A DNA stretch of 29,043 nucleotides, from IMG/VR virus record IMGVR_UViG_3300042465_002464, positions 1-29,043 of that record; one strand, 5' to 3'. The DNA is from a virus. A program made the translations under genes and the position numbers. Positions 16,235 through 29,003 of this stretch are shown here, one piece after another; positions within the stretch are counted from its first letter, which is position 1; the number at the start of each line of letters is the position of its first letter. The notes under the pieces are model-generated. The model was not told the origin of the DNA. It was given only the letters and a program-made list of their open reading frames with translations, and did not search any database.

Positions 16235-16638
16235 TGGACTACGCCAAGGCACCTAAGATGATGATCTTCGGCGGCATCCCCGACGAAGAGCCGTTCATCA
16301 CCACCAGCGAGAACCGCGAGAACACGCGCATCGCCATCCGCGACTGGATGCTCGGGCCTGAGAAGCCCAGCAACGAGCGCGGCGCGAACAAGGTCTATTG
16401 GGTGGCGCTTGGCAAGGCCATGCATGTGAACGAGGCCGAGGCGCGGCGCAGGCGGTGCTCGAACTGCGGTTATTACAAAAATGATCCCGAAACTCAAATC
16501 AAGATGGATAGGATTCCGTGGAATGAGTGGGATGTAAATGCTGGATTTAGAGGCTACTGCGAAAAGCTGGAGTTCGTTTGTCACGATCTCAGATCGTGTC
16601 AAGCGTGGGAGGAAAGAGAAGAGGAAGAAGACGACTAA
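16234..16638 (+). CDS. Cys-rich conserved phage protein, possible metal or Fe-S binder (134 aa)
   Basis: The N-terminal half includes VYWVALGKAMHVNEAEARRR. The C-terminal half carries CSNCGYY (C75, C78) and GYCEKLEFVCHDLRSCQAWE (C109, C116, C122), ending in an acidic EEREEEEDD tail. The C-x2-C then C...C-x-A-W spacing is reminiscent of high-potential iron-sulphur proteins, though C116 is extra; a zinc site is equally possible. From about codon 78 the DNA turns AT-rich compared with the first half, and the AT-rich tract continues into the antisense HNH gene whose stop codon overlaps this one. The C-terminal half may thus have come in with the HNH element. Confidence 0.7.
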   Translation: MDYAKAPKMMIFGGIPDEEPFITTSENRENTRIAIRDWMLGPEKPSNERGANKVYWVALGKAMHVNEAEARRRRCSNCGYYKNDPETQIKMDRIPWNEWDVNAGFRGYCEKLEFVCHDLRSCQAWEEREEEEDD

Positions 16639-17114
16639 ATCGTGCAGCCGTTGTGCATTCGTCTCTTTGCTTGCAGGTAGGCCTCATGTGCCTTAATCGC
16701 CGTATTGAACGAGCCGAGGTAGTGCCGTTCGCCATGGCTGGTGATGGTCGAGACAAACTTCCGTCCATGAGATCGAACTCCCAGCAATCCAGTTATGCTT
16801 GTGCGCTTGGCGTTCCTTTGGTTTTCGGTGTTCGTGCGTCTACTGACTTGCCGAAGGTTGACAAAGGTATTGTTGGCCTTGTTGCCGTCCAAGTGGTCGA
16901 TCTCTTGCGCGGGCCATTCACCAGTCATGTACAGCCACGCAAACCGATGAGCCATTGTTCGGTGGCCATCAAACATGACGTAGACGTAACCATCGCGGCG
17001 CAACGAGCCGGCAATGTCGCCTGCTCTCTTGCGTCCTTTCGATTGCAAGTGCGTAAATTGGCCAGTCTCTGGACAGTAGTGCGCAAGTTCGCGCAGACGT
17101 TCTTGAGTGATCAT
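16635..17114 (-). CDS. HNH homing endonuclease with AP2 DNA-binding domain
   Basis: Free-standing endonuclease of the phage HNH-AP2 type, 159 residues. The HNH core includes AHRFAWLYMTGEWPAQ, EIDHLDGNKANNTFVNLR (D73, H74, N87) and H56. The AP2 domain follows (about 112-151; GVRSHGRKFVSTITSHGERH, YLGSFNTAIKAHEAY). I chose ATG at 17114 because GAGG lies 6 bases upstream; an in-frame ATG at 17126 overlaps that ribosome site. It runs antisense to the virion operon and its stop overlaps the Cys-rich gene's stop. AT-rich codons differ from its neighbours. It shares the MITQ-RL-EL N-terminus and the domain order with the second HNH gene at 28146-28610. Confidence 0.92.
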   Translation of the reverse strand: MITQERLRELAHYCPETGQFTHLQSKGRKRAGDIAGSLRRDGYVYVMFDGHRTMAHRFAWLYMTGEWPAQEIDHLDGNKANNTFVNLRQVSRRTNTENQRNAKRTSITGLLGVRSHGRKFVSTITSHGERHYLGSFNTAIKAHEAYLQAKRRMHNGCTI

Positions 17115-17227
17115 GCCGCACCTCATCAGAGTGGGAATCCATCGAAGGGTGCAGCAAGCAATGATGAGTCGCCTGTCCCCCGTCGGGTAAGCTGCGGGTC
17201 TATCTTACCACGCACAAGGGCAGTACA
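17115..17227. other. Gap between HNH gene and next virion gene
   Basis: About 110 bases separate the divergent starts of the HNH gene and the 168-residue gene. It contains GGTAAG (17186-17191) pairing with CTTACC (17204-17209), a 6-bp stem with a 12-base loop. On the minus strand GTGGTAAGATAG could act as a weak extended -10 for the HNH gene. TACAAT at 17223-17228 overlaps the downstream ATG and is probably chance. No gene is seen. Confidence 0.35.
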
Positions 17228-26733: not shown

Positions 26734-28146
26734 TCAGACTCCTTTTCGTTGCCGGTATTGCTTTACGGCGGTGCGCAACGCCGCCTGTGTGGTGGCCTTC
26801 TCATCGAGTGCGATGGCCTGCGCCTGATCCAATGTGTCCTGGCACATGATGCGGTGGCAGATCACCGGGGCGCCCTGCCCCTGTCTGCGCACCCGTGCGT
26901 TGAACTGGTCGTAGAGGTCAAGGCTCCAGTTGAGACCGAACCACACCAGTGTGCGGCCGGCCCGCTGCAGCCCGTCAATGCCGTGGCCCATGCTCGCCGG
27001 GTGGCCGATCATCAGCGCACAGTCGCCGCTCTTCCATCGGTCCATCGCGGCCACCAGCGACCCCTCGCTCTTGCACTCGGTGAGGTTGATAGGGCGCAGG
27101 TCTTTGAAGCGGGTCATGATGCGTTCAGCATCGCTGCGGTAAGCGTAGGCGCACAAGACGGGAGAACCCTGAGCCTCGTCAAGGATCTCCTCCAGCGCAT
27201 CGAGCTTGAGGTCGTGGATGGGCTCCCACAGTGGCATGCCAGCCACGGGGTACACGGCACCGTTGGAGAACTGCAACGCCTTGTTGGTCAGTGAACCCTG
27301 GTTGAACACCTCGACCGTGGTGCCGTTGTCGAGCTGGGTGAAGAAGTCCTTCTCCAACTGCTCGTACTTGGCCCGCACCTCGCCCTCCATCTCCACCTCG
27401 ATGTTGTTCACGATGAGGTCGGGCAGCGGGTTGTAGTCCTCGGCGCTCATCTCCAGCGTGATGTCGCCGATGAGGTTCTTGATCGTCTCCTCGGTGTCGT
27501 GGTACGGCACCTCCTTGAAGGGGCCGGCCTTCTTGTAGAACCGGGTGCGGAACGCCGTCTTGCTGCTGCCTAGGCGCTGCCCCTTGTCCACCACCAGGAA
27601 CTGCCCGTGGAGATCCTTGTAGCCGTTGCTGGCCGGGGTGCCGGTGAGGCCCGTTGTCCAGACGAAGTGATCGAGCACCCGGCGCACGGCGCGCACGCGG
27701 TCGGTGGCGCTGTTCTTCATCTTGCTGATCTCGTCCCACACCACGCCGTTGAACGGCAGCGGCTTGCCCTTGCTGACGAAGTAGGTGTGCAGCGTCTCCG
27801 AGAGCCACTTGAGGTTCTCGTAGTTCACCAGGTAGACGTCGGCCGGGCGCAGCAGGGCGCGGCTGCGCTGGTCCCGCGTGCCGGTGACCATGCTGAATTT
27901 GAGGTGCTTGGTGTGCTCCCACTTTGCGGCCTCCTGGCGCCACACCAGACGGATCACGCGGATGGGGGCGACGATGACCACGGCGCGCAGGAACTGGGTG
28001 CGGATCAGGTGCGCAATGCTGGTGAGCGTGGTTATGGTTTTTCCAAGACCCATGTCTTTCCAAAGCATCGAGTTTGGGCGAGTGCATTGGAAATTGATTG
28101 CCTTCTTTTGGTAATCATGCAGCATCTCTGGAGTAAGCAATGCCAT
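26734..28146 (-). CDS. SNF2-type superfamily 2 helicase
   Basis: ATP-driven DNA translocase, 470 residues from the ATG at 28146. Motifs: Q-like region with LHDYQKKAINF (9-19), Walker A DMGLGKT (31-37), motif Ia VVIVAP (56-61), Walker B DEIS (138-141) replacing the usual DEAH, motif III TGTPA (168-172), motif V GHPASMGHGIDGLQ (381-394) and motif VI QFNARVRRQGQ (414-424). Phage relatives act in replication or recombination and often neighbour VRR-NUC nucleases, as here. The first 40 or so codons are AT-richer than the rest and duplicate a stranded fragment at 28645-28725; see the pseudogene entry. The ATG overlaps the HNH stop by one base (TGATG). Confidence 0.9.
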   Translation of the reverse strand: MALLTPEMLHDYQKKAINFQCTRPNSMLWKDMGLGKTITTLTSIAHLIRTQFLRAVVIVAPIRVIRLVWRQEAAKWEHTKHLKFSMVTGTRDQRSRALLRPADVYLVNYENLKWLSETLHTYFVSKGKPLPFNGVVWDEISKMKNSATDRVRAVRRVLDHFVWTTGLTGTPASNGYKDLHGQFLVVDKGQRLGSSKTAFRTRFYKKAGPFKEVPYHDTEETIKNLIGDITLEMSAEDYNPLPDLIVNNIEVEMEGEVRAKYEQLEKDFFTQLDNGTTVEVFNQGSLTNKALQFSNGAVYPVAGMPLWEPIHDLKLDALEEILDEAQGSPVLCAYAYRSDAERIMTRFKDLRPINLTECKSEGSLVAAMDRWKSGDCALMIGHPASMGHGIDGLQRAGRTLVWFGLNWSLDLYDQFNARVRRQGQGAPVICHRIMCQDTLDQAQAIALDEKATTQAALRTAVKQYRQRKGV

Positions 28147-28610
28147 CACTTCACCTCATTCAGGTAGGCAAATTCACCAAAGTGGTCTTTGGCCCAGTCG
28201 TTGTAAGCACTTGCTGCTTCCTCGATAGTAGCAAAGCGTTGTCTTTTGTTTCTCAACTGCGCTCTCCATTTACCAGTCTGTTTGCAGAATGTCACACCCT
28301 TATACCTATGCACTCTTGGCCCAGAGTTGCCAAGATTTTGCGAATGGTTGCAAGGGCGCAGATTCTCAATTCTGTTGTCGTCCCTGATTCGGTTAACGTG
28401 GTCCAACTCTTTAGCGAAATACCCGTGGTGGTACATCCATACAAGGTGATGAACTCGGTATATCTCTCCGTCCACCACAGCCACCATGTACCCCTTGGGC
28501 TTCTTTGTGCCGATGACCGTTCCAGCGTGGCTACCTTTGATCGGCACACGCCGAAGAAGATGACCCGCGTCGTAAATGAACAATTCGTGAAGCCGCTGTT
28601 GTGTGATCAT
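28146..28610 (-). CDS. HNH homing endonuclease with AP2 domain, inserted in the helicase gene
   Basis: 154 residues. HNH core: YRVHHLVWMYHHGYF (H54 region) and ELDHVNRIRDDNRIENLRPC (D70, H71, N79, N83). The AP2 domain follows (about 102-151; RYKGVTFCKQTGKWRAQLRN, RFATIEEAASAYNDWA). It shares the MITQ-RL-EL start and domain order with the HNH gene at 16635-17114. The gene is AT-rich against GC-rich flanks. It lies between the stranded original 5' end of the helicase gene and the intact helicase. No strong ribosome site precedes the ATG; a 9-bp hairpin lies 4 bases upstream. It would cut helicase alleles lacking it and spread by repair (established for the class; inferred here). Confidence 0.93.
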   Translation of the reverse strand: MITQQRLHELFIYDAGHLLRRVPIKGSHAGTVIGTKKPKGYMVAVVDGEIYRVHHLVWMYHHGYFAKELDHVNRIRDDNRIENLRPCNHSQNLGNSGPRVHRYKGVTFCKQTGKWRAQLRNKRQRFATIEEAASAYNDWAKDHFGEFAYLNEVK

Positions 28611-28613
28611 GGT

Positions 28614-28639
28614 TTTGGATAGAGTGGACCCTATCCAAA
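28614..28639 (-). promoter_or_regulatory. Inverted repeat just upstream of the HNH gene
   Basis: TTTGGATAG (28614-28622) and CTATCCAAA (28631-28639) form a perfect 9-bp stem with an 8-base loop, ending 3 bases before the HNH start codon. In RNA it would hold the start region of the HNH message near a stable hairpin, which could reduce translation or protect the 5' end. Hairpins limiting expression are known for phage homing endonucleases. A DNA operator is an alternative. Confidence 0.5.
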
Positions 28640-28648
28640 GTGTATCAC
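28639..28648 (-). promoter_or_regulatory. Putative extended -10 promoter for the HNH gene
   Basis: On the minus strand GTGATACACT has a TACACT -10-like hexamer with TG two bases before it; it matches the GTG-N-TACAYT motif at 356 and 8525. It lies immediately after the junction where homology to the helicase ends, so it would belong to the incoming element. No -35 is visible. Confidence 0.35.
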
Positions 28649-28725
28649 ATCATCGACTGCTGATGGGTGCATTGGAAGTTCACGGCCTTCTGCTGGTAGC
28701 CGTGGAGCAGATTGGGGGTCAGCAT
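28645..28725 (-). pseudogene. Stranded 5' fragment of the original helicase gene
   Basis: A 26-codon reading frame starting MLTPNLLHGYQQKAVNFQCT and ending HQQSMM before TGA. It aligns without gaps to the start of the intact helicase (LLTPEMLHDYQKKAINFQCT then RPNSMLWKDMG), with about 17 of 24 residues identical. Homology stops right after TCGATG, the codons just before WKDMGLGKT. It has the GC-rich codons of its neighbours, whereas the replacement copy does not. Its ATG overlaps the VRR-NUC stop (ATGCTGA), the usual arrangement for a real gene start. It is therefore the native beginning of the helicase gene, cut off by the HNH insertion. It may still be translated as a short peptide. Confidence 0.88.
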
Positions 28726-29003
28726 GACGCAAGCATCTCGTCAACCATGCGCAGCCCATCGTCCACGTTGTCGATGACGTAGACGCTGACCTTGTGCTGG
28801 CGCAACCGCAGGTGCTCGCGCTCTTGGGCCGGCGTGGGCTTCTGCTTCTCGCGCTTGAACTCGCAGAAGAACATCTTGCCGCTGGGCAGGATGAACAGGC
28901 GGTCGGGCACCGCAGAGTGCGCGGGGCTGGTGAACTTGTAGGCCAGCAGGCCGCGCTCACGGGCGTACCCGCACACCTTGGCCTCGATGTTCTTCTCAAG
29001 CAT
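28719..29003 (-). CDS. VRR-NUC domain nuclease
   Basis: A 94-residue stand-alone VRR-NUC protein of the PD-(D/E)xK nuclease fold. Visible motifs: N-terminal helix with E7 (LEKNIEAKVCGYARERG), VPDRLFIL with D34, CEFKREK with E48 and K50, and TPAQ (57-60). Phage members of this family are thought to resolve branched or recombination DNA and commonly neighbour SNF2 helicases, as here. The ATG at 29003 has GGAG upstream and overlaps the end of the preceding partial gene. Its stop overlaps the original helicase start. Confidence 0.93.
   Translation of the reverse strand: MLEKNIEAKVCGYARERGLLAYKFTSPAHSAVPDRLFILPSGKMFFCEFKREKQKPTPAQEREHLRLRQHKVSVYVIDNVDDGLRMVDEMLASC

Follow-up and report, generated by a model that had tools for sequence, protein, structure and literature searches.

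A phage helicase locus in which an HNH-AP2 endonuclease gene separates a stranded native 5' end from a diverged replacement

The window analyzed here is a stretch of 29,043 nucleotides from an IMG/VR virus record, IMGVR_UViG_3300042465_002464 (positions 1 to 29,043). On its minus strand, a homing-type HNH-AP2 gene is flanked by two copies of the 5' end of a SNF2-type helicase gene, one of them a stranded fragment and the other the start of a complete helicase. The explanation that we consider probable is that an HNH homing element inserts at its own cut site and brings with it a recoded replacement exon for the part of the helicase that it severs, making it a natural "home-and-rescue" unit. 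A second contig with a break at the same codon, HNH-free counterparts of the locus, linkage between the HNH gene and the helicase 5' cassette in a subgroup of related phages, and a mirror-image arrangement in a terminase gene are described below.

Anatomy of the locus

Reading along the minus strand, the window sequence and its open reading frames give the order VRR-NUC, stranded helicase 5' fragment, leader, HNH-AP2 gene, and complete helicase:

28719..29003, minus strand: VRR-NUC endonuclease gene, the upstream neighbor of the fragment (phrog_93, 1e-25; phrog_5702, Holliday junction resolvase)
28646..28725, minus strand: stranded native helicase 5' fragment, 80 nt, 26 codons and the beginning of a Trp codon (85 to 88% identical to native 5' ends in HNH-free phages as far as ...TCGATGATGTG; GC 0.56)
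28611..28645, minus strand: element leader, 35 nt, with a strong hairpin; homologs precede the same HNH gene in other phages
28146..28610, minus strand: HNH_3 plus AP2 homing-type endonuclease gene, 154 aa (PF13392, 3.7e-11; AP2 below cut-off; phrog_99, 1e-50; catalytic residues intact)
28021..28146, minus strand: recoded AT-rich replacement 5' exon of the helicase, codons 1 to 42, including Walker A GLGKT (right edge approximate, 28030 to 28000)
26734..28020, minus strand: native remainder of the SNF2-type helicase gene (phrog_62, 2.5e-128; 94% to L001, the closest HNH-free relative)

The VRR-NUC stop is overlapped by the stranded fragment (ATGCTGA), whose reading frame from 28725 encodes MLTPNLLHGYQQKAVNFQCTHQQSMM followed by a stop. 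At the other side of the insert, the HNH stop overlaps the helicase ATG at 28146 as TGATG, and the helicase frame runs complete to its end at 26734, in agreement with the claim of an earlier sequence-only reading that a replacement 5' end restores the gene. The peptides on either side of the HNH gene are 62% identical over 26 aa (tblastx, E=2e-10), which excludes chance similarity. GC content is 0.63 in VRR-NUC, 0.56 in the stranded fragment, 0.43 in the leader, and 0.49 in the HNH gene; in the helicase it is 0.45 over the first 126 nt and 0.64 over the remainder. The duplicated 5' end flanking HNH-AP2 that the sequence-only reading had proposed is thus borne out by the reading frames, the tblastx match, and the GC profile, and so is the GC contrast that it had described. 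The HNH product is of the homing-endonuclease type, having an HNH fold with conserved catalytic residues and an AP2 match that falls below the Pfam cut-off. A second HNH-AP2 gene (phrog_99) lies on the minus strand at 16635 to 17126 of the window, among plus-strand structural genes, and is 35% identical to the first over its own first 96 aa.

Colinearity between the stranded fragment and the native 5' ends of HNH-free phages extends to the Trp codon that precedes Walker A. The earlier reading had homology ending exactly after TCGATG, just before Walker A. That end point holds for the two copies in the window, but the native HNH-free genes read TCGATGATGTGG at the site and the stranded copy matches them for 5 nt more, as far as TCGATGATGTG. 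The break is therefore placed at 28646/28645, inside the Trp codon, and comparison with the native genes confirms its position just before Walker A. In the complete helicase, identity to L001 is 94 to 95% over the body and 74% over the first 126 nt; in 20-nt windows it is 65 to 80% up to about nt 140 and 90 to 100% beyond. By this profile the AT-rich tract ends near 28030 to 28000, so that the AT-rich start stands as first described and its extent, given then as about 40 codons, becomes about 42.

A group I intron at the locus was rejected: there was no Rfam intron match at gathering or relaxed thresholds, and the overlap between the HNH stop and the helicase start leaves no room for one. An intein was likewise rejected, since stop codons border the HNH gene at either end. 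The helicase of one relative (L269:702-3719) is a single 1005-aa frame with two inserts judged intein-like by their sequence motifs, the first exactly in Walker A (GLGK/...HN/TSVAL) and the second at GHPA/...HN/SMGHGID; the Walker A site therefore draws more than one kind of invader. The leader region (28590 to 28652) folds as a single strong hairpin (z -4.75) with the HNH start codon in its stem. No compensatory changes were seen in the alignment with the leaders of other phages; the idea of a conserved RNA was accordingly set aside, and any regulatory role is only putative.

Relatives with and without the HNH gene

Searching viral contigs with the helicase yielded 80 relatives, and the locus comparison set held 74 HNH-free loci and 14 nonredundant HNH+ loci, the window included. 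A homing element is characterized by a site that is occupied in some related genomes and vacant in others, and these loci show that pattern. Most HNH-free relatives have VRR-NUC overlapping a single intact helicase gene, the uninterrupted junction that the sequence-only reading had anticipated. HNH-free phages with both helicase 5' copies, which it had named as counterevidence, number 0 of the 74 examined. The HNH gene lies directly upstream of the helicase in 13 other phages, and donor-like phages in which it directly precedes an AT-rich helicase 5' end were found, also as anticipated. Loci that we call A-type have in common the leader TGGTGTATCATGGATAGAGTNCAACTCTGG..., a helicase beginning with M-x-LLTP rather than MLTP, a junction of HNH stop and helicase start, and AT-richness over the opening 120 nt of the helicase.

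The HNH gene and the helicase body have different distributions. On the tree of helicase bodies, seven changes are needed for seven HNH+ rows (whole-length rows). On the tree of the 5' 126-nt cassette two suffice, a count as low as this occurring in 0/500 shuffles, although this tree rests on few columns and we make no claim for its fine branching. Within the well-sampled A-type subgroup, helicase 5' ends group with the HNH gene and the bodies are scattered among HNH-free phages, from which we conclude that in this subgroup the HNH gene and the 5' cassette move together. Every HNH+ phage has an HNH-free phage near to it in the helicase body from which it is distant at the 5' end. The deficit in 5' identity relative to the nearest HNH-free relative averaged 0.20 in HNH+ loci (n=9) versus 0.01 in HNH-free loci (n=35), and because the loci are related, the Mann-Whitney value for this difference (p=3e-6) is only indicative.

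The cassette of the window is of a different kind (K-type). It falls outside the A-type clade of the cassette tree, with 69% identity to A-type, and its joint arrival with the HNH gene therefore rests on the features it shares with HNH+ loci: the Mx-LLTP start, the stop/start overlap, the tract length, and the AT-richness. As none of the sampled donors is a particularly near match, the direct donor of this cassette lies outside the sample. A search of bacterial genomes recovered only distant HNH genes, and none of the listed matches was a cultured phage with a doubled helicase N-terminus.

The VRR-NUC/helicase junction is a variable spot among HNH-free relatives, many of which carry other, unrelated small genes there (L003, L007, L009, L017, L025, L030, L055, L065, and L071). 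Clean HNH+ loci, those with no stranded piece, keep ATGCTGA, often with TGG, before the leader, and were considered as deletion derivatives of the stranded form. The VRR-NUC stop needs ATGCTGA anyway, so its retention is not telling, and that derivation is no more than a possibility.

A second break, a terminase counterpart, and target-site variation

An independent contig (L084) repeats the architecture of the window, with a stranded MLTPDQLHSYQQKAINFQCTHPNSMLWMV ending in a stop, a leader, an HNH gene, and a complete helicase. As in the window, its break falls at the Trp codon before Walker A, either within that codon or immediately behind it. When 153 distinct HNH genes were screened for peptides occurring on both flanks, one further convincing case emerged, in L242; two other candidates, L146 and L244, look like low-complexity or weak chance matches and were dropped. 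In L242 (3900 to 4545) the HNH gene follows the gene for the terminase large subunit; upstream of it the C-terminus has been replaced, and downstream lies the stranded native 3' end. The terminase ends in a diverged EYVATAPKRGYTAGGIATSWMGA, then comes the HNH gene, and then the stranded ...VDRAPRRAYAPGGISNSWMGA. The stranded 3' end is identical to that of the HNH-free L272 at 66/66 nt and the replacement end at 51/72. Comparison with HNH-free terminase relatives (96 to 98%) thus identifies the stranded piece as the native end. The window and L084 at the 5' end of a gene, and L242 at the 3' end, thus all have the diverged in-frame replacement and stranded native terminus by which exon-replacing mobile ORFs of the fungal type (mORFs) are recognized.

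The target site itself varies with the presence of the HNH gene. Leu follows the pre-Walker A Trp in 67/74 HNH-free loci versus 1/14 HNH+ loci. The L084 cassette retains this Leu, so resistance there would need other differences. Short foreign patches occur at the site in HNH-free phages, reading W-K in L002, L004, and L016, as in the window, and W-V-S in L010 to L012, as in the HNH+ L172. The gene in the same slot of L172 (4001 to 4492) is a different HNH, 43% identical, and its W-V-S target type matches that of L010 to L012. Across 106 close HNH-free pairs compared in 60-nt windows, those below 80% identity pile up at nt 30 to 180 of the helicase gene, and 46 of the 64 start at nt 30 to 120. 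Two phages form an empty/filled pair (L062/L070) that is 98% identical and differs by the HNH insert at a TAAC microhomology; the HNH-free member, L062, retains an A-type 5' end and would most simply have lost the HNH gene. As judged from these sequences, the target-site patterns may be traces of HNH loss and immunity. The states represented among the loci, which would be the main stages of the proposed life cycle, are empty, filled with a stranded piece, filled and clean, HNH lost with the recoded site kept, and HNH-free with no more than a patch at the inferred cut site.

Interpretation and comparison with known systems

We infer cleavage at the Trp codon, resistance of the cassette, the route of repair, and function of the hybrid helicase. 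The mobile unit would consist of the leader, the HNH gene, and the recoded copy of the first approximately 42 helicase codons. The most likely target of the HNH enzyme is the Trp codon preceding Walker A in helicase genes of HNH-free phages, and repair from an HNH+ phage would copy leader, HNH gene, and recoded exon into the recipient. On the right side, repair would join inside the helicase; on the left, recipient sequence would be kept up to the cut, leaving the original 5' fragment stranded. The incoming exon would replace the lost helicase start and differ at the cut site, so that the host gene would work and should escape recutting. The sequence-only reading had the left side joined without homology, which is possible and not required. 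In a donor with its own stranded copy, that copy would act as a left homology arm of 80 nt, as an exon does for an intron, and ordinary two-sided homing is then possible; a one-sided, end-joined event is the alternative. Three considerations weigh against the home-and-rescue explanation: the cassette of the window does not cluster with the sampled A-type donors, that of L084 retains Leu behind the Trp, and the 5' end of a gene beside variable neighbors may recombine often without an endonuclease.

The strongest competitor, which we think unlikely, is ordinary free-standing ("intronless") homing, in which an HNH gene between VRR-NUC and the helicase cuts the adjacent helicase, the cassette is a co-converted flank, and the stranded fragment is a rare failed resolution without a role. 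Co-conversion of flanks is standard for the Seg and Mob endonucleases of T4 (PMC2988022), and most HNH+ relatives have a clean intergenic arrangement. The earlier statement that the element is neither an intron nor a simple intergenic insertion accordingly stands here as to the intron, and as to the intein, but does not extend to most HNH+ relatives, which look like simple intergenic free-standing endonucleases; for that reason the stranded form represents a single state within a broader system. Free-standing homing is disfavored by the break of L084 at the same codon, the terminase mirror with its stranded 3' end, and insertion at, not far from, the inferred cut site. It shades into the home-and-rescue explanation, the two being told apart by whether the stranded form recurs.

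Two copies around the HNH gene would also result if the phage had duplicated its own helicase 5' end, the HNH gene had then entered between the copies, and one of them had drifted. We find such a local duplication very hard to credit given the sharp edge of divergence (65 to 80%, then about 97% to L001), a body so nearly unchanged that drift would need to hit 126 nt alone, the common cassette of A-type HNH+ phages across distant bodies, and tandem 5' ends in 0/74 HNH-free phages. An assembly or binning chimera of two related phages, conceivable for a metagenomic virus record, is equally improbable with the same architecture in the independent contig L084, its mirror in L242, and, in the two helicase cases alike, a junction at a codon of biological significance.

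Returning to the home-and-rescue explanation, we lean slightly toward a general class in phages, namely non-splicing, exon-replacing HNH homing elements that would enter essential genes at the sites they themselves cut (Walker A of the helicase, the C-terminus of the terminase) and supply the severed end in a recoded form that resists cutting, with later loss of the HNH gene leaving resistant patches in HNH-free phages. The phage literature covers endonuclease insertion near essential genes in general (PMC10448857); a phage precedent for exon replacement was not found in the accessible literature, in which subscription papers were only partly covered. The closest known systems are the mobile-ORF hybrid genes of fungal mitochondria (Allomyces macrogynus atp6; Glomus sp. 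atp6, atp9, cox2, and nad3), in which mobile endonuclease ORFs bring a foreign C-terminus to the gene and strand the native one (PMC3630166). They share with the present locus an endonuclease ORF in an essential gene, a diverged in-frame replacement terminus, and, beyond the ORF, a stranded native terminus matching element-free relatives. The fungal elements encode LAGLIDADG or GIY-YIG enzymes, are mitochondrial, and replace the C-terminus, whereas here the enzyme is HNH-AP2, the host a bacteriophage, and the replaced part the helicase N-terminus; the phage terminase of L242 has the C-terminal form, as in the fungal genes.

Among phage systems, the T4 Seg and Mob endonucleases likewise combine a small HNH gene beside a conserved gene with flank co-conversion and a divergent target sequence, but they are described as cutting hundreds to thousands of bp away from the gene (PMC2988022), whereas this element lies directly against the place where it is inferred to cut and leaves part of its target stranded. 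Aeh1 mobE in nrdA and T4 mobA in gene 60 are also endonucleases inside essential phage genes without an intron (PMC2988022). There the gene keeps its two halves, which come together again as two polypeptides; here a replacement exon gives a single complete protein and makes the old half redundant. The in-frame hidden HNH of ShiLan is another non-splicing HNH insertion in a phage gene, one that is read through as an extra loop, and the abstract of that account mentions no duplicated exon (PMC11855218).

For a selfish endonuclease to occupy an essential gene, that gene must go on working. In phages this is known to be solved by introns, inteins, and split genes, and exon replacement, known from fungal mitochondria, is a further solution. 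The logic of engineered home-and-rescue gene drives is alike: they destroy part of an essential gene by homing into it and bring that part along in recoded form (PMC7968924). Those drives use Cas9 in flies, whereas the arrangement described here is natural and has an HNH enzyme, which would make the locus their natural counterpart.
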